Assembly (NCBI GenBank): GCA_002699145.1
Contig: PABK01000060.1
Coordinates: 256,308-320,307, forward strand
Source of the DNA: Halioglobus sp.
Lineage (GTDB): Bacteria > Pseudomonadota > Gammaproteobacteria > Pseudomonadales > Halieaceae
Direction: 5' to 3'
DNA: 64,000 nt
A model generated the notes under the pieces. That model was not told the origin of the DNA, did not search any database, and saw only the letters and a list, made by a program, of their open reading frames with translations. This document shows positions 6,072 to 29,825 of the stretch, one piece after another (positions within the stretch are counted from its first letter, which is position 1; each line of letters begins with the position of its first letter). The translations under genes and the position numbers were made by a program.

Positions 6072-9000
6072 CTAGTGAAAATTGCGCGCCTTCACGCGCA
6101 ACTCGCGCAGGGCCTCGGTGTGGTCGTACAGGGCGCCGGCGATGACGTGGATCACGCCGTCCTTCTGCTCCACCACGCCGTTCACCAGCAACAGTTGCGC
6201 CGACATCAGCGCCCGGCGGAAGCGTTCCTGGGTGCGTTTCCACACCACCACGTTGCTGTTGCCGGTCTCGTCCTCCAGGGTGAGGAACAGCACCCCCGAG
6301 GCGCTGCCCGGGCGCTGGCGGCAGGTGACCAGGCCGGCGATGCGCACGAAGCGCCTGTTGCCGATGGCGGCCAGGTCCGCCTGGCGTTTGCAGCGGTCGA
6401 AGGGCGGCGCGTCGCGCAGCAGGCTCATCGGGTGGGCGCGCAGGGTCAGGCCCAGGGCGCGGTAATCGGACAATACTTCCTCGGCCACGCCGGGTGCCGG
6501 CAGTTGCACGCCGTCGTCGAAATGGCGGGCCGGCTGGCGCTGCTCGTCCTGTAGCAGGGGGCGCGGCTGCTCCAGGGCCATGATCTGCCACTGTGACTGG
6601 TGGCGGTGTCCGGCCAGGGACTGCAGGGCGTCGGCGTCCGCCAGCGCCTCCATGTCGCGCTTGTCCAGCCCGGCCTGCCGCCGCAACTGGCTGACCTGGC
6701 GGAACGGTGCGCGCCGCCGCGCCTCCACCAGGCGCCGCGCGCCCTCGCGGCTGAGCCCCCGCACCAGGCGCAGGCCCAGGCGCAGGGGCGGTTGTTGCCC
6801 CGGTGCGGCTGTCAGCAGGGTGTGGTCCCAGTCCGAGTGGTTGACGTCCACCGGCAGCGCCACGACGCCGTGGCGACGGGCGTCCTGCAGCAACTGCGAG
6901 GGCGTGTAGAAGCCCATGGGCAGGCTGTTCAGCAGGCCGGCGAAAAACGCCGCCGGGTGGTGGCGCTTGAGCCAGGCCGAGACCCAGGCGAGCAGGGCGA
7001 AACTGGCGGAGTGCGACTCGGGGAAGCCGTAGCCGCCAAAGCCCTTGATCTGCTCGAACAGGCGGCGCGCGAAGGCCTCGTCGTAGCCGCGCTCGATCAT
7101 GCCGCGGGTGAGCTTCCGCTCGAAGGTGAGCAGCTTCGAGTTCCTGCCCCAGTTGGTGATGGCGCGGCGCAACTGGTCCGCCTCGCCGCCGGAAAAGCCC
7201 GCCGCCACCATGGCCAGGCGAATCACCTGCTCCTGGAAGATGGGCACGCCCAGGGTGCGCTGCAGCACGTCGCGGATCTCCTCGCTGGGGTAGGTGACGG
7301 CCTCCAGGCCCTGCTTGCGCCGCAGGTAGGGGTGCACCATGTCGCCCTGTATCGGCCCCGGGCGCACGATGGCGATCTCGATCACCAGGTCGTAGAAGCA
7401 CGCCGGTTTCAGGCGCGGCAGCATGGACATCTGCGCCCGCGACTCGATCTGGAACACGCCGATCGTGTCCGCCTGCTGCAGCATGCGCCAGGTGGCGGCG
7501 CAGTCCCTGGGGATATCGCTCACCGTTTTGATGGACGGGCAGTAGCGCTGCACCAGGGCCAGCGTCTTGCGGATGGCGGAGAGCATGCCCAGGGCGAGCA
7601 CATCGACTTTCAGCAGGCCCATGGCCTCGATGTCCTCCTTGTCCCACTGGATTACCGTGCGCTCGTCCATGCTGGCGTTCTCCACCGGTACCAGGGTGGA
7701 GATGGGGCTGCGCGTGATGACGAAGCCGCCCACGTGCTGCGACAGGTGGCGCGGGAAGCCCAGCACCTGTTGCACCAGCGAGTAGAACAGTTGCGCCTGG
7801 CGGCTGTGCTGCGCCACGCCCTGTTCCTCGAAGCGTTTGGCGAGGTCGCGCGTGCGGTCCCACCAGGCCATGGACTTCGCCAGGTCGTCGACGAACACCG
7901 GGTCCAGCCCCAGCGCCTTGCCCACGTCGCGCACCGCGCTGCGCGCGCGGTAGGTGATGACCGTGGCGGCCAGGGCGGCGCGCCGCCGCGTGTACCTGGC
8001 GTAGATGTACTGGATGACCTCCTCGCGGCGCTCGTGCTCGAAGTCGACGTCGATATCCGGCGGCTCGTCCCGCTCCCTGGAAATGAAGCGCTCGAATAGC
8101 AGGGAGATCTGCTCGGGGGATACCTCGGTGATGTACAGGCAGTAACAGACCACGGAATTGGCCGCCGAGCCGCGGCCCTGGCAGAGAATGCCGCGGGAGC
8201 GCGCGAAACGCACGATGTCGTACACGGTGAGGAAGTAGTACTCGTAGCGCAGCTCGCCGATCAGCGCCAGCTCGCGCTCGATGCGCGCCTGTATCTGCCC
8301 CGGTACGCCGCCGGGCCAGCGCTGGCGCGACCCCCGCGTCACCAGTTCGCACAGGTAGCTGTTGGCGCTGTGGCCGGCGGGCACGACTTCCTCGGGGTAC
8401 TCGTAGCGCAGCTCGTCGAGGCTGAAATCGCACAGGCCGGCGATGCGCACGCTCTCGGCGAGCAGGGCGGGGGGATAGAGACGCTCCAGGGCGGCCAGCG
8501 AGCGCAGGTGCCGTTGGCTGTTGCCCAGGCGCCGGCTGCCGAGCCGATCGATGCTGGTGTTGTGGTGCAGGGCGGTGAACATGTCGTGCAGGGGCTTGCG
8601 CGTGGCGTCGTGCATGCACACGTCGCCGCAGGCGACCAGCGGCAGGCCCAGTTGCGCCGCCATGGCCTGCAGGCGCAGGTAGCGGCGCACCTCGTCGTTG
8701 CCCAGCAGGTGGCTGACGCCCAGCCAGACGCGGTCGCGGCACAGGCGCCCGAGCTGCTGGCCGTAGGCGCGGGTGGCTTCGCTGTCGTCCCGCGGCAGCC
8801 AGATGAGCAGGCAGCGCTTGAGGTGGAAGATGACGTCGCGCAGGGTGACCCGGTACTCCCCCTTGGGGCTGCGCCGCCGGGCCATGCTGATCAGCCCGGA
8901 CAGCTCCGCATAGGCGGCGCGACTGGGCACCAGGGCCACCAGGCGCAGGCCCTCCTGCAGGCGCAGTTCGCTGCCGATGAGCAGCTTCAGGCGCGTCTCC

Positions 9001-9176
9001 GCCGCCAGCTCGCGCGCCGCCACGTGGGCCTTCACCACCCCCGCCAGGGAGCACTCGTCGGTGATGGCCAGGGCGGCGTAGCCCAGCGCCGCCGCCCGCT
9101 CCACCAGTTCGTGGGGGTGGGAGGCGCCGCGCAGGAAGCTGTAGCAGCTCAGGCAGTGGAGTTCGGCGTAGGACAT
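6072..9176 (-). CDS. dnaE2: Error-prone DNA polymerase DnaE2 (ImuC)
   Basis: Catalytic subunit of the SOS mutasome, which copies past damaged bases together with ImuA and ImuB. The 1034-aa length matches DnaE2 rather than the ~1160-aa replicative DnaE. It opens with the PHP domain (MSYAELHCLSCYSFLRG, then AALAITDECSLAG). The palm carries PPDIDVDFEHERREE with the metal aspartates. FQIESRAQMSMLPRLKP, an HhH region and a C-terminal OB domain follow. A LexA box lies 24 bases before the ATG, so SOS control is nearly certain. imuB is 14 kb upstream and imuA 20 kb upstream on the same strand instead of adjacent. Confidence 0.95.
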   Translation of the reverse strand: MSYAELHCLSCYSFLRGASHPHELVERAAALGYAALAITDECSLAGVVKAHVAARELAAETRLKLLIGSELRLQEGLRLVALVPSRAAYAELSGLISMARRRSPKGEYRVTLRDVIFHLKRCLLIWLPRDDSEATRAYGQQLGRLCRDRVWLGVSHLLGNDEVRRYLRLQAMAAQLGLPLVACGDVCMHDATRKPLHDMFTALHHNTSIDRLGSRRLGNSQRHLRSLAALERLYPPALLAESVRIAGLCDFSLDELRYEYPEEVVPAGHSANSYLCELVTRGSRQRWPGGVPGQIQARIERELALIGELRYEYYFLTVYDIVRFARSRGILCQGRGSAANSVVCYCLYITEVSPEQISLLFERFISRERDEPPDIDVDFEHERREEVIQYIYARYTRRRAALAATVITYRARSAVRDVGKALGLDPVFVDDLAKSMAWWDRTRDLAKRFEEQGVAQHSRQAQLFYSLVQQVLGFPRHLSQHVGGFVITRSPISTLVPVENASMDERTVIQWDKEDIEAMGLLKVDVLALGMLSAIRKTLALVQRYCPSIKTVSDIPRDCAATWRMLQQADTIGVFQIESRAQMSMLPRLKPACFYDLVIEIAIVRPGPIQGDMVHPYLRRKQGLEAVTYPSEEIRDVLQRTLGVPIFQEQVIRLAMVAAGFSGGEADQLRRAITNWGRNSKLLTFERKLTRGMIERGYDEAFARRLFEQIKGFGGYGFPESHSASFALLAWVSAWLKRHHPAAFFAGLLNSLPMGFYTPSQLLQDARRHGVVALPVDVNHSDWDHTLLTAAPGQQPPLRLGLRLVRGLSREGARRLVEARRRAPFRQVSQLRRQAGLDKRDMEALADADALQSLAGHRHQSQWQIMALEQPRPLLQDEQRQPARHFDDGVQLPAPGVAEEVLSDYRALGLTLRAHPMSLLRDAPPFDRCKRQADLAAIGNRRFVRIAGLVTCRQRPGSASGVLFLTLEDETGNSNVVVWKRTQERFRRALMSAQLLLVNGVVEQKDGVIHVIAGALYDHTEALRELRVKARNFH

Positions 9177-9197
9177 GGGGCAAGGCGGGATTATCTA

Positions 9198-9217
9198 TAC
9201 TGTATATACATACAGTA
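9198..9217. promoter_or_regulatory. LexA (SOS) box of dnaE2
   Basis: TACTGTATATACATACAGTA is essentially the gammaproteobacterial consensus, with CTG at 9200-9202, ten bases, then CAG at 9213-9215. It sits 24 bases before the dnaE2 ATG and about 150 bases before the divergent small gene at 9365. Confidence 0.92.
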
Positions 9218-9364
9218 TAGACCATTTCGGCGTTTGCCAATGCCCTGTCGCCGCTTCGTGGCCCGCGCGTGCCGGCAAAGGCGACAGGGCGGATCGGATG
9301 TTCCCGCAGCGCCGCCGGGAGGCTAGCCTCGCCGGTTACACGGCTGAACACAGGGAGGTGTGCC

Positions 9365-23321: not shown

Positions 23322-24740
23322 TCAGGCGAAGATGCCGTGGAGGTACCACTGCCCGGCGAGCCGGTCGCGGAACACCCAGTAGTGCTGCCCGCCGCGGCCC
23401 GTGGCGATGTAGTAATCGCGGCTCACCGCCTCGCGCCACCAGTTGTCCTCGATGCGTTCCGGGCCGTACAGCAGTTGCAGCGCGCCGCGCCAGTGCAGGC
23501 GCCCGTCGCGCAGTCGCAGGCCCCGGGGCTCGGGCAGCAGCCAGAAGGGGCGCTGGGCGCCGGGCGGCGCCGCCTGCCCGGTGCATTCGCCGCCGATCGC
23601 CACCGCCAGCTCCGGCAGGTGCTCGTCGCGGCAGCCGATACCCTGCACCGCCTGCAGGCCCAGGCGGTTGCGCAGCCGGTCGAGCAGGGCGGCCAGGGGC
23701 TCGCGCTGGCTGCGCGGGCTGAACAGGTCGATGTTGTCGAGCTCGCCGGGCAGCAGCTGCCGGCATTCCAGCCCGAGGCCCTCCACGCCGCCGGTCAGGC
23801 TGAGTTGCTCGAAGCGGATACGGCTGAGCTGGTACCAGCTCTCCCGGTCGCTGTGGCTGCTGGCGCTGCCCACGTCGACATCCCGCACGCTGCCGTCTAT
23901 GCCGACCAGGCGCCAGGTGATCCGGGTGCAGCGCAACTGGGTGTTGCGCAGGAAGCGGCACAGGGACTGTAACAGGCGCTGCACCGCCGGCAGCAGTTCG
24001 CCGTTGGTTTTCACCTCGTAACCGAACCAGTACTCGTCGCAGAAGGTGAGCGGTGGGCGGTAGTCGGCGCGCAGGTCCTCGCGCTGTCCCAGCACCTGTT
24101 GCAGGTAGTCGCTGAAGTCGCGGCCGCAACGGCGGCCCAGCGCCGGCGGCGGCAGCGCCAGGATGTCCCCCAGGGTGTGCAGGCCCGCCCGGCGCAGGGA
24201 GTCGACCGTGCCGGGGAATTCATCCAGCCTGTCCAGCGGCAGGGGGGCCAGGCGTTCCTGCAGCGGACGCGCCGGGTCCATGGCCGTCTCGGGCGCCGCG
24301 AAAGACAGCAGCCAGGCGGCCTTCGGCGTGGGTCCGAGGGCGCGGCAGGCGCGGTAGCCGCGGCCGTCGGTGCCCGAGGCCACTTCCCGCAGCAGCGCCT
24401 CCAGGCCGTTGAACAGGCCCAGGCAGCCGCCGATTTCCAGCAGCAGGCAGTCCTCCCGCCAGGTGTGCAGGTTGGGGGTGATGCCGTAGCCCCAGCAGCA
24501 CAACTGCTGCAGGCTGCGCTGCTCGGCCGCGGTGTCCCGCTGCAGCAACTGCAGCGGCCCGTCGCCGACCAGCGCGCGCACGGTGGCGCTGCCCATGCCC
24601 GGGCGCACGCCCAGGGCGGCGGCGCAGTCGTTGGCGCAGAGCACCCGCTGGGCGGCCAGCACCACCACCGGCGTGTCCTCGCAGCGGCTCAGGCATTCCA
24701 GGGGCAGGCGCTCGAAGCGCAGGCATAACCACAGGCTCAT
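23322..24740 (-). CDS. imuB: Mutasome subunit ImuB (Y-family polymerase-like)
   Basis: Non-catalytic Y-family polymerase homologue that bridges ImuA, DnaE2 and the beta clamp in SOS mutagenesis. The 472-aa protein starts MSLWLCLRFERLPLECLSR, where active polymerases have their first catalytic Asp; ImuB proteins lack it. Further blocks are WGYGITPNLHTWREDCLLLEI, LHTLGDILALPPPALGRRCG and the C-terminal YWVFRDRLAGQWYLHGIFA. The ATG at 24740 fits the usual ImuB N-terminus better than the in-frame ATG at 24770. The SOS box 64 bases upstream was split by a transposon but rebuilt at the junction. Confidence 0.93.
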   Translation of the reverse strand: MSLWLCLRFERLPLECLSRCEDTPVVVLAAQRVLCANDCAAALGVRPGMGSATVRALVGDGPLQLLQRDTAAEQRSLQQLCCWGYGITPNLHTWREDCLLLEIGGCLGLFNGLEALLREVASGTDGRGYRACRALGPTPKAAWLLSFAAPETAMDPARPLQERLAPLPLDRLDEFPGTVDSLRRAGLHTLGDILALPPPALGRRCGRDFSDYLQQVLGQREDLRADYRPPLTFCDEYWFGYEVKTNGELLPAVQRLLQSLCRFLRNTQLRCTRITWRLVGIDGSVRDVDVGSASSHSDRESWYQLSRIRFEQLSLTGGVEGLGLECRQLLPGELDNIDLFSPRSQREPLAALLDRLRNRLGLQAVQGIGCRDEHLPELAVAIGGECTGQAAPPGAQRPFWLLPEPRGLRLRDGRLHWRGALQLLYGPERIEDNWWREAVSRDYYIATGRGGQHYWVFRDRLAGQWYLHGIFA

Positions 24741-24803
24741 CGCGGCCCCCGCGATGCCGGGGCGGCCCATGGCGCGGGTCGTCTGCCCGTGTCGCCACTA
24801 ATA

Positions 24804-24819
24804 CTGTACATATATCCAG
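24804..24819. promoter_or_regulatory. LexA box rebuilt at the left transposon junction (imuB side)
   Basis: CTG-TACATATATC-CAG. The CTGT and the 8-bp target copy ACATATAT come from the chromosome; the final CCAG is the transposon tip. The undisturbed site read CTGTACATATATACAG, a perfect LexA box, as shown by joining the two flanks across one target copy. It lies 64 bases before the imuB start. Confidence 0.85.
24808..24815. repeat. Left 8-bp target-site duplication
   Basis: ACATATAT, identical to 27238-27245 at the other end. Eight bases is the usual duplication for IS1595-family elements. Confidence 0.9.
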
Positions 24820-24842
24820 ATATTATACGAGGCGGACCCACT
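24816..24842. repeat. Left terminal inverted repeat of the transposon
   Basis: It begins CCAGATATTATAC and ends GCGGACCCACT. Compared with the right end it differs at positions 14, 15 and 17 only. Similarity continues inward as CACTGT..AA..ATACA.T into a LexA-like box. Confidence 0.92.
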
Positions 24843-24856
24843 GTACAAGAATACAG
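24841..24856. promoter_or_regulatory. LexA box inside the left transposon end
   Basis: CTG-TACAAGAATA-CAG, a full CTG-N10-CAG match flanked by CA and TAA. It lies 100 bases upstream of imuB and starts within the last two bases of the terminal repeat. It could repress an outward promoter toward imuB or the 3' neighbourhood of the 48-aa gene. Confidence 0.65.
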
Positions 24857-24898
24857 TAATTTGGCCTGACCAGAACAGCAGGCCGGTGGGGTAAGAGG

Positions 24899-25045
24899 TT
24901 ATTCGTCCTCTTTGGGGGCGTCTTCCTTATCGGTTTTGACGTTCAGAGAGTCAAGGGCCTTATCGAGCGCGTCCTCGGATTCGTCGCACTCGATGTCGCG
25001 AGCGACGTCCTCAAATTTGTCACTTTTCGAAACCTCACCACCCAT
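24899..25045 (-). CDS. Small acidic transposon passenger protein (48 aa)
   Basis: The product MGGEVSKSDKFEDVARDIEC continues to a C-terminus NVKTDKEDAPKEDE and is strongly acidic with one cysteine. AAAGGTAA lies eight bases before the ATG at 25045. It is read toward imuB, with its stop 43 bases inside the LexA box. No family recognised; it could be an accessory or antitoxin-like peptide but nothing proves this. The clean start, ribosome site and codon use support a real gene. Confidence 0.5.
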   Translation of the reverse strand: MGGEVSKSDKFEDVARDIECDESEDALDKALDSLNVKTDKEDAPKEDE

Positions 25046-25145
25046 AGCCGTTACCTTTTCATTCAAAAGTCACGCGGTTCTCACTCCTAACATTGAGTCA
25101 AACCCACGCGCCCATTGACACAAACTTTTCAATATGGATAATAGA

Positions 25146-25182
25146 GAAATGCCCGGAATCCTTGGGGGAAACCGGGCATTTC
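25146..25182. promoter_or_regulatory. Hairpin upstream of the 199-aa passenger gene
   Basis: An 11-bp perfect inverted repeat, GAAATGCCCGG and CCGGGCATTTC, with a 15-base loop, about 70 bases before the start codon. It may be an mRNA leader structure or an operator. No U tract follows, so a terminator is unlikely. Confidence 0.45.
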
Positions 25183-25250
25183 GGAAGCATTTCAGAGCGG
25201 TATTTTTACCCCCAGATGAAGGCCGGGGAACCGTAGGAGGTGTGCGCTTG

Positions 25251-25850
25251 ATGGGCGACACGTTTCAGAAGATAACGGATTGGGTTGAATTTGTCAACTC
25301 CCAATCTGCCTACCATAAACGCCAGGTCGAGCGCATTTGCCGCCGGAAAGAAAACGGCAAGGTCAAGCCCGAACTGAAGCGCCAAGAAGCAAACCATCAA
25401 CGCGTCGCCGATCAATTTGACCAGCTCGCGTCCTTCCTTGAGTCAATAGGAGAATCACCTGCTAGTAACAGCCCGCAGGATGGTGAAGTTGTGTCGCCAT
25501 CACTTCACTTCATGCCTGAGGATTTAGTGGGCTTACCTCCAGAAATCTTGGACCAGCTGAATATCAGCGAATCCGACGAGCTGGAGCTGGATATTTACGA
25601 GGCCCTTGAAAAAGCAGGTGGAACTCTACCCGTCGACAAAATTCTGATCCAAGTTTTCCGAGATACGAAAAAAGTTCTGCAAAGGGATAAGCTCGCCTCT
25701 AAGCTGTACCGCATGGCGTCCAAGGGCCGTATAGAGGCGTCTACCGAACACCGTGGGGTGTACTCCTTACCCGCTGGCGGGAGGGTGGCCGCCTCACACA
25801 CCATCGTCTACGACATAGAGGGAGGTAGCGAGAGCGCAGATAACGAATGA
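25251..25850 (+). CDS. Transposon passenger protein with C-terminal winged-helix-like region
   Basis: A 199-aa product. Residues 1-65 are basic and helical (YHKRQVERICRRKENGKVKPELKR), a linker follows, and residues ~100-170 read as a winged-helix-like DNA-binding unit (ELDIYEALEKAGGTLPVDK, KLASKLYRMASKGRIEAS, HRGVYSLP). The start chosen is ATG 25251, with TAGGAGG ten bases upstream; an overlapping TTG three bases earlier is also possible. Longer readings run through a hairpin and are unlikely. It is convergent with the transposase gene. It may regulate the element; function unproven. Confidence 0.65.
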   Translation: MGDTFQKITDWVEFVNSQSAYHKRQVERICRRKENGKVKPELKRQEANHQRVADQFDQLASFLESIGESPASNSPQDGEVVSPSLHFMPEDLVGLPPEILDQLNISESDELELDIYEALEKAGGTLPVDKILIQVFRDTKKVLQRDKLASKLYRMASKGRIEASTEHRGVYSLPAGGRVAASHTIVYDIEGGSESADNE

Positions 25851-25898
25851 GACTCTAGTCCGGCTGGTGTAGGCAGCCAAGACCAAGCAGCGGAAACA

Positions 25899-25935
25899 AA
25901 AAAGGGGATACCCCTACCAAGAGCACCCCTTTTCT
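25899..25935 (+). terminator. Terminator after the 199-aa passenger gene
   Basis: AAAAAAGGGG followed by ATACCCC and then CACCCCTTTT gives a hairpin with an A tract before and a T tract after the stem, about 50 bases past the stop. Confidence 0.6.
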
Positions 25936-26075
25936 GCTGACCCGTAACGGATCACTTGCTGTGGATACTGGGGCTTAACCCTCAGCAGCCGTGCGCGTGA
26001 ACGCAATGTCATGTTAGGCTTTGTGGCACGGTTTGGCAAATTCGGCCCCTCGCTTTTTATGTGAGGTATTTCGCG

Positions 26076-26186
26076 ATGTTGCAATGCAATTATCCGAAAG
26101 GCGTTCATGTTCGCCGCTACTTGCGCCGCCGCTTCGGCCGCTGGGAGTGGGTGTGCGAGCATTGCCGCAGTTATCCGAGTCGCTAG
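26076..26186 (+). CDS. 36-aa basic peptide with CxxC motif in the transposon
   Basis: The product starts MLQCNYPKGVHVRRYLRRRF and ends GRWEWVCEHCRSYPSR. It is very basic, with a Cys near the start and a CEHC pair, so a small zinc knuckle is possible. GAGGT stands eight to nine bases before the ATG. It lies between two terminators in the space between passenger and transposase genes. A coding role is plausible but not certain. Confidence 0.4.
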   Translation: MLQCNYPKGVHVRRYLRRRFGRWEWVCEHCRSYPSR

Positions 26187-26216
26187 TCATCTAGCGGTAA
26201 GGGAATTTGCCTAACT

Positions 26217-26246
26217 AAAAGGGGGCGGGACGCCGCCCCCTCTTTT
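26217..26246. terminator. Strong bidirectional terminator before the transposase stop
   Basis: AAAAGGGGGCGG-GACG-CCGCCCCCTCTTTT: an eight-pair GC stem with A and T tracts on both sides, placed four bases beyond the transposase stop. It should end the transposase mRNA and block read-through from the plus strand. Confidence 0.85.
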
Positions 26247-26249
26247 CGT

Positions 26250-27170
26250 TTAGCCGTTAATTCTTTGATAAGTGAGTCGCTTGCCGGATACGCCCAGTAG
26301 AGCAATGTCAGCGCGTTCAGCATCCGTGTACTCGTTTTTGGCTCGATAGTTGTAGCGGAAGTCGTATTCAGCCAGATAGCGGTGTAGGTGCTGTTTACCG
26401 CAATGCTGGTAGACACCACGCATACCGCGCTTGAACACAGAGAAGTAGTTTTCAACGGTATTGGTGTGGTGCTCAGGGTTGGTCTTGCTGACATACTCTC
26501 CTACGCCGTGGTTGACGCTGTGGTGCTCGGCAAAGGTTCGGCCAATTTTCTTGTAATGCTGCGCCTGATCGGTCATCAACTGGGCCTCGCGGGCGATGTT
26601 CTCTTTTACGATGGGGTAAATCTCGCCAATGGTTACTTTGTCGATAACCATAGACCGGGCCTTTTTGGTTTCGCGGTCCACCAGGGAAAGAACCTTAAGT
26701 TTCTTGCTGCCGTGCGGGCCTTTGCCCAGCCCTTTGGTCTTACCCATGTAGGTTTCATCAACTTCAACGATACCGCCGCCAGAACCAAAGGTGGGCAGGG
26801 TATTGTCGCGCATTGCCTCCCGGATGCGGTGTGACATGAACCACGCAGTTTTCAGCGTGACACCCAAGGTGCGATGAAGCTGATTGCTGCTACAGCCCTT
26901 CTTGCTTGAGCACATCAGGTAAATGGCCTGTAACCACAGGTGCATCTTTACGTGGCTGGACTCGAAGATGGTGCCGATCTTGACCGTGAACTTCTTACGG
27001 CATGCACGGCACTTGTAGGTGCCTATGCGGGTACTTTTGCCCTGCATCTTGGTAGTGCGCTCGTTTTCACCGCAGTGAGGGCATACAGGGCCATTAGGCC
27101 AAAGCTTCGACTCTACATAAGCGTATGCGGCTTCTTCATCGTGGAATTCTGGACGGCTCAAAATGGACAT
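26250..27170 (-). CDS. IS1595-family transposase (ISXO2-like)
   Basis: A 306-aa transposase. The N-terminal zinc ribbon has VCPHCGENER and YKCRACRKKF. The DDE core shows GIVEVDETYMGKTKG (first Asp), LMTDQAQHYKKIG (second Asp), HTNTVENYFSVFKRGMRG (third acidic residue, Glu after Asn) and YNYRAKNEYTDAERAD. The ATG at 27170 is preceded by TGAGG at eight bases; an upstream in-frame ATG at 27197 lacks a good ribosome site. The longer open frame to 27614 leaves the element and is not real. A LexA-like site overlaps the upstream region. Confidence 0.95.
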   Translation of the reverse strand: MSILSRPEFHDEEAAYAYVESKLWPNGPVCPHCGENERTTKMQGKSTRIGTYKCRACRKKFTVKIGTIFESSHVKMHLWLQAIYLMCSSKKGCSSNQLHRTLGVTLKTAWFMSHRIREAMRDNTLPTFGSGGGIVEVDETYMGKTKGLGKGPHGSKKLKVLSLVDRETKKARSMVIDKVTIGEIYPIVKENIAREAQLMTDQAQHYKKIGRTFAEHHSVNHGVGEYVSKTNPEHHTNTVENYFSVFKRGMRGVYQHCGKQHLHRYLAEYDFRYNYRAKNEYTDAERADIALLGVSGKRLTYQRING

Positions 27171-27196
27171 GCTAGTTTCCTCAATCAATGGAAACA

Positions 27197-27212
27197 TTGT
27201 ATGTTTAAACAG
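27197..27212. promoter_or_regulatory. LexA-like site in the transposase promoter region
   Basis: TTG-TATGTTTAAA-CAG, one base off CTG-N10-CAG, placed 27 bases before the transposase ATG and mirroring the perfect box at the left end. Binding is uncertain because the mismatch falls in a key position. Confidence 0.4.
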
Positions 27213-27237
27213 TGGGTCCGTCAAGTATAATATCTGG
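27211..27237. repeat. Right terminal inverted repeat of the transposon
   Basis: It reads AGTGGGTCCG to GTATAATATCTGG on the plus strand, the inverted partner of 24816-24842 with 24 of 27 matches. Confidence 0.92.
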
Positions 27238-27249
27238 ACATATATACAG
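27234..27249. promoter_or_regulatory. LexA box rebuilt at the right transposon junction (GH5 side)
   Basis: CTG-GACATATATA-CAG. The CTGG is the transposon tip; ACATATAT and ACAG are chromosomal. It lies 90 bases before the GH5 start. Confidence 0.8.
27238..27245. repeat. Right 8-bp target-site duplication
   Basis: ACATATAT, identical to 24808-24815. Together they mark a single insertion event. Confidence 0.9.
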
Positions 27250-27338: not shown

Positions 27339-28454
27339 ATGACCCTGCCACGACGCTCCGTGCAATTCATCGCCGCGCTGGCCCTGTACTGCGCCGCCGC
27401 CCTCGCCCTGGCCGGTGCGCCGCTGGCGCCGGTCAGCGTCGACGGCGCCGACCTGCGGCGCGACGGCGAGATCTTCCGCGTGTTCGGCGTGCAGAACCTG
27501 GAACACCCCTTCGAGCGCGCCTTCTACCGCGAGGGCACACCGCTGCAGCGCGCCGCGATGCAGCGCCGCATCGACGCCCTGGAGGCGTTGGGCGTGAACA
27601 CCCTGCGCGCGCACCTGCAGTTGTTCGACTTTGTCGGCATGGCACCCTCTGGCGAGCTGTTCGCGCGCGAGCGCGCTTTCGACAACCTGTCGTACCTGGT
27701 GTCGCTGGCGCAGGAGGCGGGCATCTACCTGCTGCTGTCGGCCAATAACGTGTGGACCACGGATGTGCTACCGGCCTGGTACGACGACATGCACTACCGC
27801 GAACGCTGGGAGGTGCAGGCGTTTTTCCTCGGCCAGCTGGCGCTGCGGCTGGCCCCCTCGCCGGCGATACTGGCCTATGAACTGATGAGCGAGCCGGTAG
27901 TGCGGCTGGAGGCGGACGCGCCCTGGTACAGCGGCCAGATCGAGGATTACCGTTTCGTGCAGGCGGTGGCCCGCGGCGTGCCCGAAGACCAGGCGAACGC
28001 GGTGGGGCGGGAGTGGGTCCTGCGCCTGCGTGCGGCGGTGCGCGAACACGACCCGCAGGGCCTGGTGACCTTCGGCGCCATGGGTGGTTTTTACGGCGGT
28101 CCGCTGGGCGTGGACAACGTCGGGCCACTGCTGGACCTGGTGTCACCGCATATCTACCCCAGCGTGGAGGACCCCGGCTACGCCCTGCGGATAGTGCACA
28201 GGTACCTGGCCGCGGGCAAACCGCTGGTGATTGGCGAGACGCACAGTTTTCAATCCAGCCCGGCGCTGTTTGCCGAGTTCCTGCGCGAGGCGGCGCCGCT
28301 GGTCGACGGCATCATTTCTTTCTACCACGGCAGCGGAGACGCGGCGGCGCCCATCGGGCGCTCCCGCTCCGCGCTGATCCTGGACTGGCACGCGCAGAAC
28401 CTGCAGGTGCTGCGCGAGATGCGTGCGTATATCCTGCAGCCGCCGGCTCCCTGA
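27339..28454 (+). CDS. Exported GH5-like (cellulase family) glycosidase
   Basis: A 371-aa clan GH-A barrel protein. The signal peptide is RRSVQFIAALALYCAAALAL, with cleavage near AGA. NTLRAHLQLFDF, AILAYELMSEPVVRLE (acid/base Glu) and KPLVIGETHSFQSSP (nucleophile Glu) mark the retaining catalytic pair. The sugar substrate is unknown; mannan- or glucan-type linkages are typical for relatives. Located in the periplasm or exported. The start ATG 27339 sits just before the signal peptide; earlier in-frame codons reach back into the transposon junction. Before the insertion this gene faced imuB across one LexA box. Confidence 0.75.
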   Translation: MTLPRRSVQFIAALALYCAAALALAGAPLAPVSVDGADLRRDGEIFRVFGVQNLEHPFERAFYREGTPLQRAAMQRRIDALEALGVNTLRAHLQLFDFVGMAPSGELFARERAFDNLSYLVSLAQEAGIYLLLSANNVWTTDVLPAWYDDMHYRERWEVQAFFLGQLALRLAPSPAILAYELMSEPVVRLEADAPWYSGQIEDYRFVQAVARGVPEDQANAVGREWVLRLRAAVREHDPQGLVTFGAMGGFYGGPLGVDNVGPLLDLVSPHIYPSVEDPGYALRIVHRYLAAGKPLVIGETHSFQSSPALFAEFLREAAPLVDGIISFYHGSGDAAAPIGRSRSALILDWHAQNLQVLREMRAYILQPPAP

Positions 28455-29805: not shown

Positions 29806-29825
29806 TACTGTATGTTTATACAGTA
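29806..29825. promoter_or_regulatory. LexA (SOS) box of imuA
   Basis: TACTGTATGTTTATACAGTA with CTG at 29808-29810 and CAG at 29821-29823. Fully consensus, upstream of imuA. Confidence 0.92.

Follow-up and report, generated by a model that had tools for sequence, protein, structure and literature searches.

What brings a transposon to the exact centre of a LexA operator, and is its position there more than luck? The question is raised by a stretch of 64,000 nucleotides from Halioglobus sp. (GenBank assembly GCA_002699145.1, contig PABK01000060.1, positions 256,308 to 320,307; this whole stretch is called the window below), where an IS1595-family transposon lies within the LexA-type box in front of an imuB-like gene. 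The gammaproteobacterial LexA box is CTGT-N8-ACAG, and imuA-imuB-dnaE2 and recA are SOS genes. We propose that the element, a low-copy member of the IS1595 family, quite likely belongs to a small clade of transposons in which the transposase picks out LexA operators for insertion. The element and its insertion site comprise the following features.

24816..27237: IS1595-family transposon, 2,422 bp, delimited by its inverted repeats and an 8-bp duplication and checked base by base
24808..24815: target duplication ACATATAT, imuB side, exact copy
27238..27245: target duplication ACATATAT, far side, exact copy
24816..24841, plus strand: inverted repeat distal to the transposase gene, facing imuB
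27212..27237, minus strand: inverted repeat at the transposase end
24804..24819: imuB-side junction CTGTACATATATCCAG, LexA-like, matrix score 23.2, the same as the lowest score among the training boxes
27234..27249: far-side junction CTGGACATATATACAG, LexA-like, matrix score 23.2
26250..27170, minus strand: transposase of 306 amino acids with zinc ribbon and DDE domain (PF12762, E-value 2.3e-32; PF12760, 2.1e-13; NF033547, 2.6e-58)

The original prediction had placed the transposon exactly at the centre of the imuB LexA box, with the 8-bp duplication as the middle of that box, and this was confirmed to the base. The flanks joined over one duplication read CTGTACATATATACAG, a LexA-type box before imuB with ACATATAT as its core, and the insertion splits CTGT-ACATATAT-ACAG at the centre of what we call a 4-8-4 site (four bases, eight-base core, four bases). 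The joined box had also been described as a perfect LexA box and a palindrome; it matches CTGT-N8-ACAG in full, but by eye only seven of its eight pairs are palindromic. The pre-insertion site is seen in nature, since four congeneric genomes have these 16 bases unbroken in front of imuB (G010 and G015 on the window's strand, G002 and G014 as the reverse complement). The transposase scores 197.4 bits against NF033547 (cut-off 75) and is likewise above the cut-offs of PF12762 and PF12760, and the terminal inverted repeats match at 21 of 24, 24 of 27 and 26 of 30 bases. A DDE transposase with an N-terminal zinc ribbon, the 8-bp duplication and the inverted repeats thus place the element in the IS1595 family, and the duplication length and DDE architecture given in the original prediction are borne out by the profiles and by ACATATAT on both sides. 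A search of the host genome found no second copy, so that the element is single-copy there. The matrix behind the scores was built from 17 boxes of this genus, including the window's imuA and dnaE2 boxes and one natural CTGG variant.

The evidence that carries our proposal comes from the target sites of relatives, which were chosen by transposase similarity only and whose ends were located by matching inverted repeats and duplications. Of 207 relatives the best 80 were kept; among these and the window's element, 58 had ends that could be found and 23 did not. The 59 resolved sites are the 54 of those 58 that passed a stricter cut and five later copies (X287, X871a, X871b, X617 and X016), while X647, X426 and L044 did not have both ends resolved. 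The counts do not include the viral loci whose duplications are exact (L113, L116, L120, L121, L123, L126, L127 and L134/L135, the last two with equal ends), none of which by eye has CTGT/ACAG flanks. Five of the 59 resolved insertions belong to the clade of the window's transposase, and all five lie in LexA-type boxes: the flanks match CTGT/ACAG at 8 of 8 positions for the window's element, L031, L033 and X287 and at 6 of 8 (CTAG/ACAG) for L032. The other 54 sites match at 0 to 5 of 8. If sites were exchangeable, the chance of five of five against none of 54 would be about 2e-7 (1/C(59,5)). X287, which came to light once the pattern was known, fitted it. Tips of the form C-N-N-G at both ends occur in exactly these five elements.

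The nearest relative, L031 (82% identity, 3,553 bp, with CATG tips and different cargo), occupies the same imuB operator in genome G001, Halioglobus japonicus BC5_1. L032 (73%, Granulosicoccaceae) lies before recA (RecA, PF00154, E-value 4.5e-143), L033 (70%, Granulosicoccaceae) before a gene with a CYTH domain, and X287 (68%, genome G287) before an integron-integrase-like gene (PF00589, 5.3e-08), whose product matches TIGR02249 with an E-value of 1.6e-20 and 73.7 bits against a cut-off of 265 and has IntI4 as its sole PDB match. Integron integrase genes have been reported to be widely LexA-regulated (PMC8876359). In both L033 and X287 the two copies of the duplication differ at one base, as expected of old insertions. 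The suggestion in the original prediction that the element targets SOS boxes, rather than having arrived by luck, is therefore supported, all five resolved clade members sitting in LexA-type boxes and none of the 54 outside doing so, although the cases are few. Copies in unrelated targets had been named there as the observation that would tell against targeting; they are seen in the wider family and not among the resolved clade members, the viral L111, of which one junction is visible, being a possible exception.

The wider family prefers sites of the same geometry but of other sequence. In the 54 sites of the stricter cut, flank positions 1 to 4 pair at frequencies of 0.43, 0.50, 0.54 and 0.50 versus 0.25, 0.33, 0.26 and 0.29 in 5,000 shuffles (p 0.0002-0.004); at position 5 the excess is marginal (p 0.10), and from 6 to 14 there is no difference from the shuffles. 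With the LexA group removed, the 50 remaining sites still pair at 0.40, 0.48, 0.50 and 0.46 versus 0.25, 0.33, 0.25 and 0.30 (10,000 flank shuffles; p 1e-4 for the sum of the four), with no excess pairing at positions 5 to 10. Judged from these target sequences, the family reads a 4-8-4 dyad, and the LexA box, CTGT-8-ACAG, has the same 4-8-4 geometry as the family's preferred sites.

Several relatives merit mention in their own right. Matching of element tips to flanks was considered as a family-wide rule and rejected (p 0.0003 for the 54 sites, only 0.018 for the 50 without the LexA group); its signal is visibly carried by L105 and L058 and so was not used as main evidence. In the alphaproteobacterial L105 the tips CCCA and CCTA exactly match the four-base target flank on either side, giving a perfect 4-8-4 palindrome at each junction. 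The sphingomonad copies L068, L077, L088 and L089 lie in sites resembling TGTCA-N8-TGACA or TGTCA-N8-TTACA, which are perhaps the operator of another regulator. Relatives outside the clade often lie in an A/T tract beside a hairpin, as though intrinsic terminators were their target. At 17 of the 59 sites the duplication is almost entirely A or T, and in 8 of these the hairpin before the T side is stronger than in single-base shuffles (z < -2; the median of the 17 is -1.7). Terminator-like sites are those of L035, L045, L048, L049, L055, L057, L061 and X871b (L176), and by eye also L044.

The transposase tree (106 rows; L114 and L115 left out; L136, with 7 stops, and matches shorter than 780 bases dropped) unites the five resolved members and the viral L111 as one group with support of 100/99. 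The sister of this group is L044 (98/94), whose transposase is 71-74% identical, which has GGCG at its visible tip and which sits after a hairpin (by eye) in a T-tract.

We propose that a two-fold symmetric transposase complex would read the four bases flanking the staggered cut on either side, and that this preference may in the clade have turned into CTGT/ACAG around an A+T-rich core; in a genome of this kind, that would largely amount to the LexA box. The preference of the family for a 4-8-4 dyad, which is the geometry of the LexA box, makes direct recognition by the transposase likely. LexA boxes are conserved, intergenic and near-palindromic and would thus offer a portable safe site.

In addition to its target, the element contains LexA-like sequences of its own, which the original prediction had overlooked.

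24841..24856: internal LexA-like box CTGTACAAGAATACAG, 26 bases from the imuB-facing tip, matrix score 14.7, fifth best in the 64 kb
27197..27212: LexA-like near-match CTGTTTAAACATACAA over the putative transposase promoter, starting 26 bases from the tip
24822..24827, minus strand: TATAAT directed outward to imuB

Within the 64 kb the matrix ranks only four sites above these two internal boxes, namely the boxes of dnaE2 and imuA and the two junctions, which makes them fifth and sixth; the seventh site scores 3.2. The first has counterparts at the same base 26 in L031 (CTGTACAAATAAACAG), L032 (CTGTGATTAAAAACAG) and L033 (CTGTACGCAATACCAG, one mismatch). Among the 58 far ends, CTGT-N8-ACAG with at most one mismatch occurs in four, all of the LexA group and all at base 26, and in none of the other 54; X287, looked at separately, has a one-mismatch internal box at base 44. 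With 18.8, the box of L031 scores, like that of the window's element, fairly well. It is the end away from the transposase that faces the operator's gene in five of five resolved clade members. The outward TATAAT recurs in L032 and X287, with TATAAC in L031 and TATGAT in L033 (by eye), but the ATTATA of the repeat is common to the wider family, so that this motif is not special to the clade. At the transposase end, CTGTTTAAACATACAA overlies the putative promoter (by eye, TTGACG at 27219-27224, a 17-base spacer and TACAAT at 27196-27201) in both the window's element and L031, and no box within one mismatch was found at that end of L032, L033 or X287. In L032 the sequence between the element and the recA start holds no further such box by eye.

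A box rebuilt at each end of the element had been predicted from its CCAG tips. This holds for the window's element, and X287 likewise has CTG-N10-CAG at both junctions, but L032 and L033 have it on the gene side only and the closest relative, L031, at neither. Rebuilding by CCAG tips is thus no general design, and as an essential feature it was rejected because it fails in L031. From the element ends compared here, the feature common to the clade is the internal LexA-like box near the gene-facing end and not the rebuilt junctions.

With less assurance, we suggest that the downstream gene would stay LexA-controlled through the combination of outward TATAAT, internal LexA-like box and almost restored junction, and that insertions in this orientation may survive for that reason; such retained control is plausible. 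The LexA-like box over the transposase promoter of the window's element and L031 may also make transposition damage-inducible. A fuller version of the proposal, in which the transposase recognises LexA operators, the gene-facing end brings a LexA-controlled replacement promoter and the transposase is damage-inducible through its LexA box, is a tentative extension that we hold to be possible rather than probable; if true, the element would live in, copy and obey one SOS switch.

A number of observations weigh against what we propose. There are five sites only, one of them a 6 of 8 match, and two share an orthologous operator, leaving four different operators. The transposase of L033 has a stop codon, and we know of no SOS role for its CYTH neighbour. 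The viral L111, although inside the clade, has a CATG tip and TATC in the CTGT position, its second junction lying off the contig, and the LexA-group trait needs two changes on the transposase tree. Identity to the query alone is no marker of the target, since L034, L035 and L036 (69-70%) and L044 (71-74%) lie elsewhere, while L033 (70%) and X287 (68%) lie in boxes. As to the internal features, the matrix, which comes from one genus, gives poor scores to the boxes of L032, L033 and X287 (2.9, -2.1 and 7.0), the shared orientation amounts by arithmetic to 1 in 32, one-sided, and an outward sigma-70 promoter was rejected as a candidate when none in the window's element passed the consensus scan.

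LexA itself might provide the guidance, bound LexA bringing the transposase complex to its operator while the transposase reads no CTGT/ACAG. LexA sits on such sites in undamaged cells, and the resolved clade sites, five in all, are LexA-type boxes; in four cases the gene behind the box is of SOS type (imuB twice, recA and the integron-integrase-like gene). However, the relatives prefer the same 4-8-4 geometry at the 50 non-LexA sites, and an insertion at the operator's very centre would have to compete with LexA bound there. The geometry of the family needs no LexA guidance, and we regard such guidance as possible though unlikely, with direct recognition the most likely route.

Survival could in principle produce the same pattern, if the element inserted into many A+T-rich palindromes and the insertions in LexA boxes persisted because the element restores LexA control. 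The family does prefer A+T-rich sites with 4-bp dyad flanks, and the same end faces the gene in every clade member. However, the 95,750 host positions at the five loci contain 11 places where the 4-bp arms pair perfectly around a core with 7 or more A/T; two of these are CTGT/ACAG, both in the window that holds the imuA and dnaE2 boxes. In the whole genome (5.2 Mb) CTGT-N8-ACAG occurs at 51 places versus 24 for the reversed control pattern, or about one position in 100,000, and by our own count such an A/T core is present in 8 of the 50 places listed. With so few CTGT/ACAG among A+T-rich palindromes, LexA-type boxes should make up a small share of such targets, and, given the relatives at terminator-like sites, survival alone should leave clade members there too. 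We therefore consider survivorship an improbable explanation compared with selection of the operator by the transposase.

The two imuB insertions appear to be separate events. In the imuB tree (16 rows; two G011 fragments left out) the window's genome (G000) and G001 are not sisters, with 0% bootstrap support (200 trees) for uniting them. The window's element and L031 have different bases at positions 2, 3 and 7 of the repeat, and within each element the two ends agree there; the tips likewise change in concert, CCAG/CCAG in the former and CATG/CATG in the latter. The two elements align over the transposase end, as far as about 220 bp beyond the transposase, and again at the far end, with one 34-base match between. 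Divergence at four-fold sites is 0.59 for the transposase versus 0.43-0.56 for five host genes; it is near saturation and, to the detriment of our case, does not separate one insertion from two. The imuB tree leads us to reject a single ancestral insertion at imuB, four-fold divergence being neutral, and two independent insertions are favoured by these sequences. The weakest alternative, that the imuB pair is one old event and the rest chance in A+T-rich intergenic DNA, can draw on the shared operator, the same orientation, the sister transposases and a four-fold divergence compatible with a single event, but in the face of non-sister hosts, concerted tip differences, different cargo and three further operators in other genomes, and with CTGT-N8-ACAG present about once per 100,000 positions of the genome studied here, it is already very improbable.

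The surroundings of the insertion site in the window are as follows.

23322..24770, minus strand: imuB-like Y-family polymerase gene, whose box is split (PF00817, E-value 2.9e-06; no NCBIfam family; ImuA nearby, NF033429)
27339..28454, plus strand: divergent gene, family not confirmed by profile searches
29808..29823: intact LexA box before imuA (imuA start 29754, minus strand)
9200..9215: intact LexA box before a gene at 6072-9176 (minus strand), which from its translation we take to be dnaE2/imuC-like

In this window imuA, imuB and the dnaE2-like gene stand apart, each with its own LexA-type box (29808-29823, 24804-24819 and 9200-9215); with those of imuA and the dnaE2-like gene intact, the transposon sits in one of three such boxes. 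The divergent gene had been named GH5, which the profile searches do not support: no Pfam family was found at an E-value of 0.001 or below and no NCBIfam family, and a TIM-barrel match is sub-threshold (E-value 0.041). We see no evidence that this gene is under SOS control. In the genus, imuB matches are present in 17 of 18 genomes, of which two carry the insertion (G000 and G001), 12 by our own count have a box near imuB without it (in G009 with CTGG for CTGT, in G011 on a fragment) and three (G003, G004 and G017) have a box only further upstream. The uninserted operator of G009 (L187, at about 1425-1440) reads CTGGATATATGTACAG, with the same T-to-G change as a transposon junction box; this is either a point change or the trace of an excision.

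Some IS1595 relatives carry passenger genes, and the window's element holds one passenger open reading frame.

25251..25850, plus strand: passenger open reading frame of 199 amino acids, no family assigned

With a longer start at 25134 its best hit is a sub-threshold match to MazE (E-value 0.0068). PADLOC was run on nine cargo proteins, which do not cover every cargo reading frame; two of L031 matched well and six had no match, and a weak match of L032 cargo to Cas13c (E-value 0.0088) was disregarded. The two L031 proteins, both encoded on the minus strand, are an ImmA/IrrE-like metallopeptidase (8803-9330; PADLOC capP-like, E-value 8.5e-20) and a DUF5343 protein (7328-8140; 4.8e-10), which are candidate defence genes.

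Searches for further clade copies yielded 44 plasmid records and 4 from phages, all below 60% identity, and only L032 and L033 among 48 in the host family of L032 and only X287 among 15 in the host family of X287. A second class sample gave two genomes with contig coordinates seen before and was probably largely the same sample. Viral end-pattern searches returned nothing, then L111 only, then nine stretches lacking the family's TTGACG continuation, which we judged to be chance.

Among published systems, the element resembles IS1595-family insertion sequences (IS) such as ISApl4 and the IS1016 group in its IS1595-type DDE transposase and A/T-rich 8-bp duplications, but the sites of ISApl4 are described, in the portion of that paper available, only as A/T-rich duplications, with no mention there of operator targeting or internal LexA-like boxes (PMC12561309). 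IS30 is similar in that its preferred hot spots other than inverted repeats are nearly palindromic and insertion into the LHS hot spot is at its central 2 bp; however, it belongs to another family with a 2-bp duplication, and a regulator's operator as target is unmentioned in the accessible excerpt (PMC9333248). The REP-targeting IS (ISPsy8, ISPa11, ISPpu9, ISPpu10, ISRm22 and ISRm19) also select a class of extragenic palindromes, but their target as summarised is REP repeats and no transcription-factor operator (PMC1525189). ISCR1, ISCR2 and ISCR8 have a LexA-controlled transposase promoter, while LexA boxes as insertion target are unmentioned in the part of the source at hand (PMC13393415). 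No report of an IS that targets LexA boxes is among the matches listed, which comprise titles and the starts of abstracts and cover few subscription journals. To the extent of these sources, LexA control of ISCR transposases, the IS30 hot spots and the REP-targeting IS are the nearest published ideas found.

A transposase that reads the operator of a global regulator could spread across species by way of a conserved switch, and it would be a natural tool to mark SOS genes. How DDE transposases gain target specificity is testable here by comparison with the sister element L044, which has other tips and lies in a T-tract after a hairpin.

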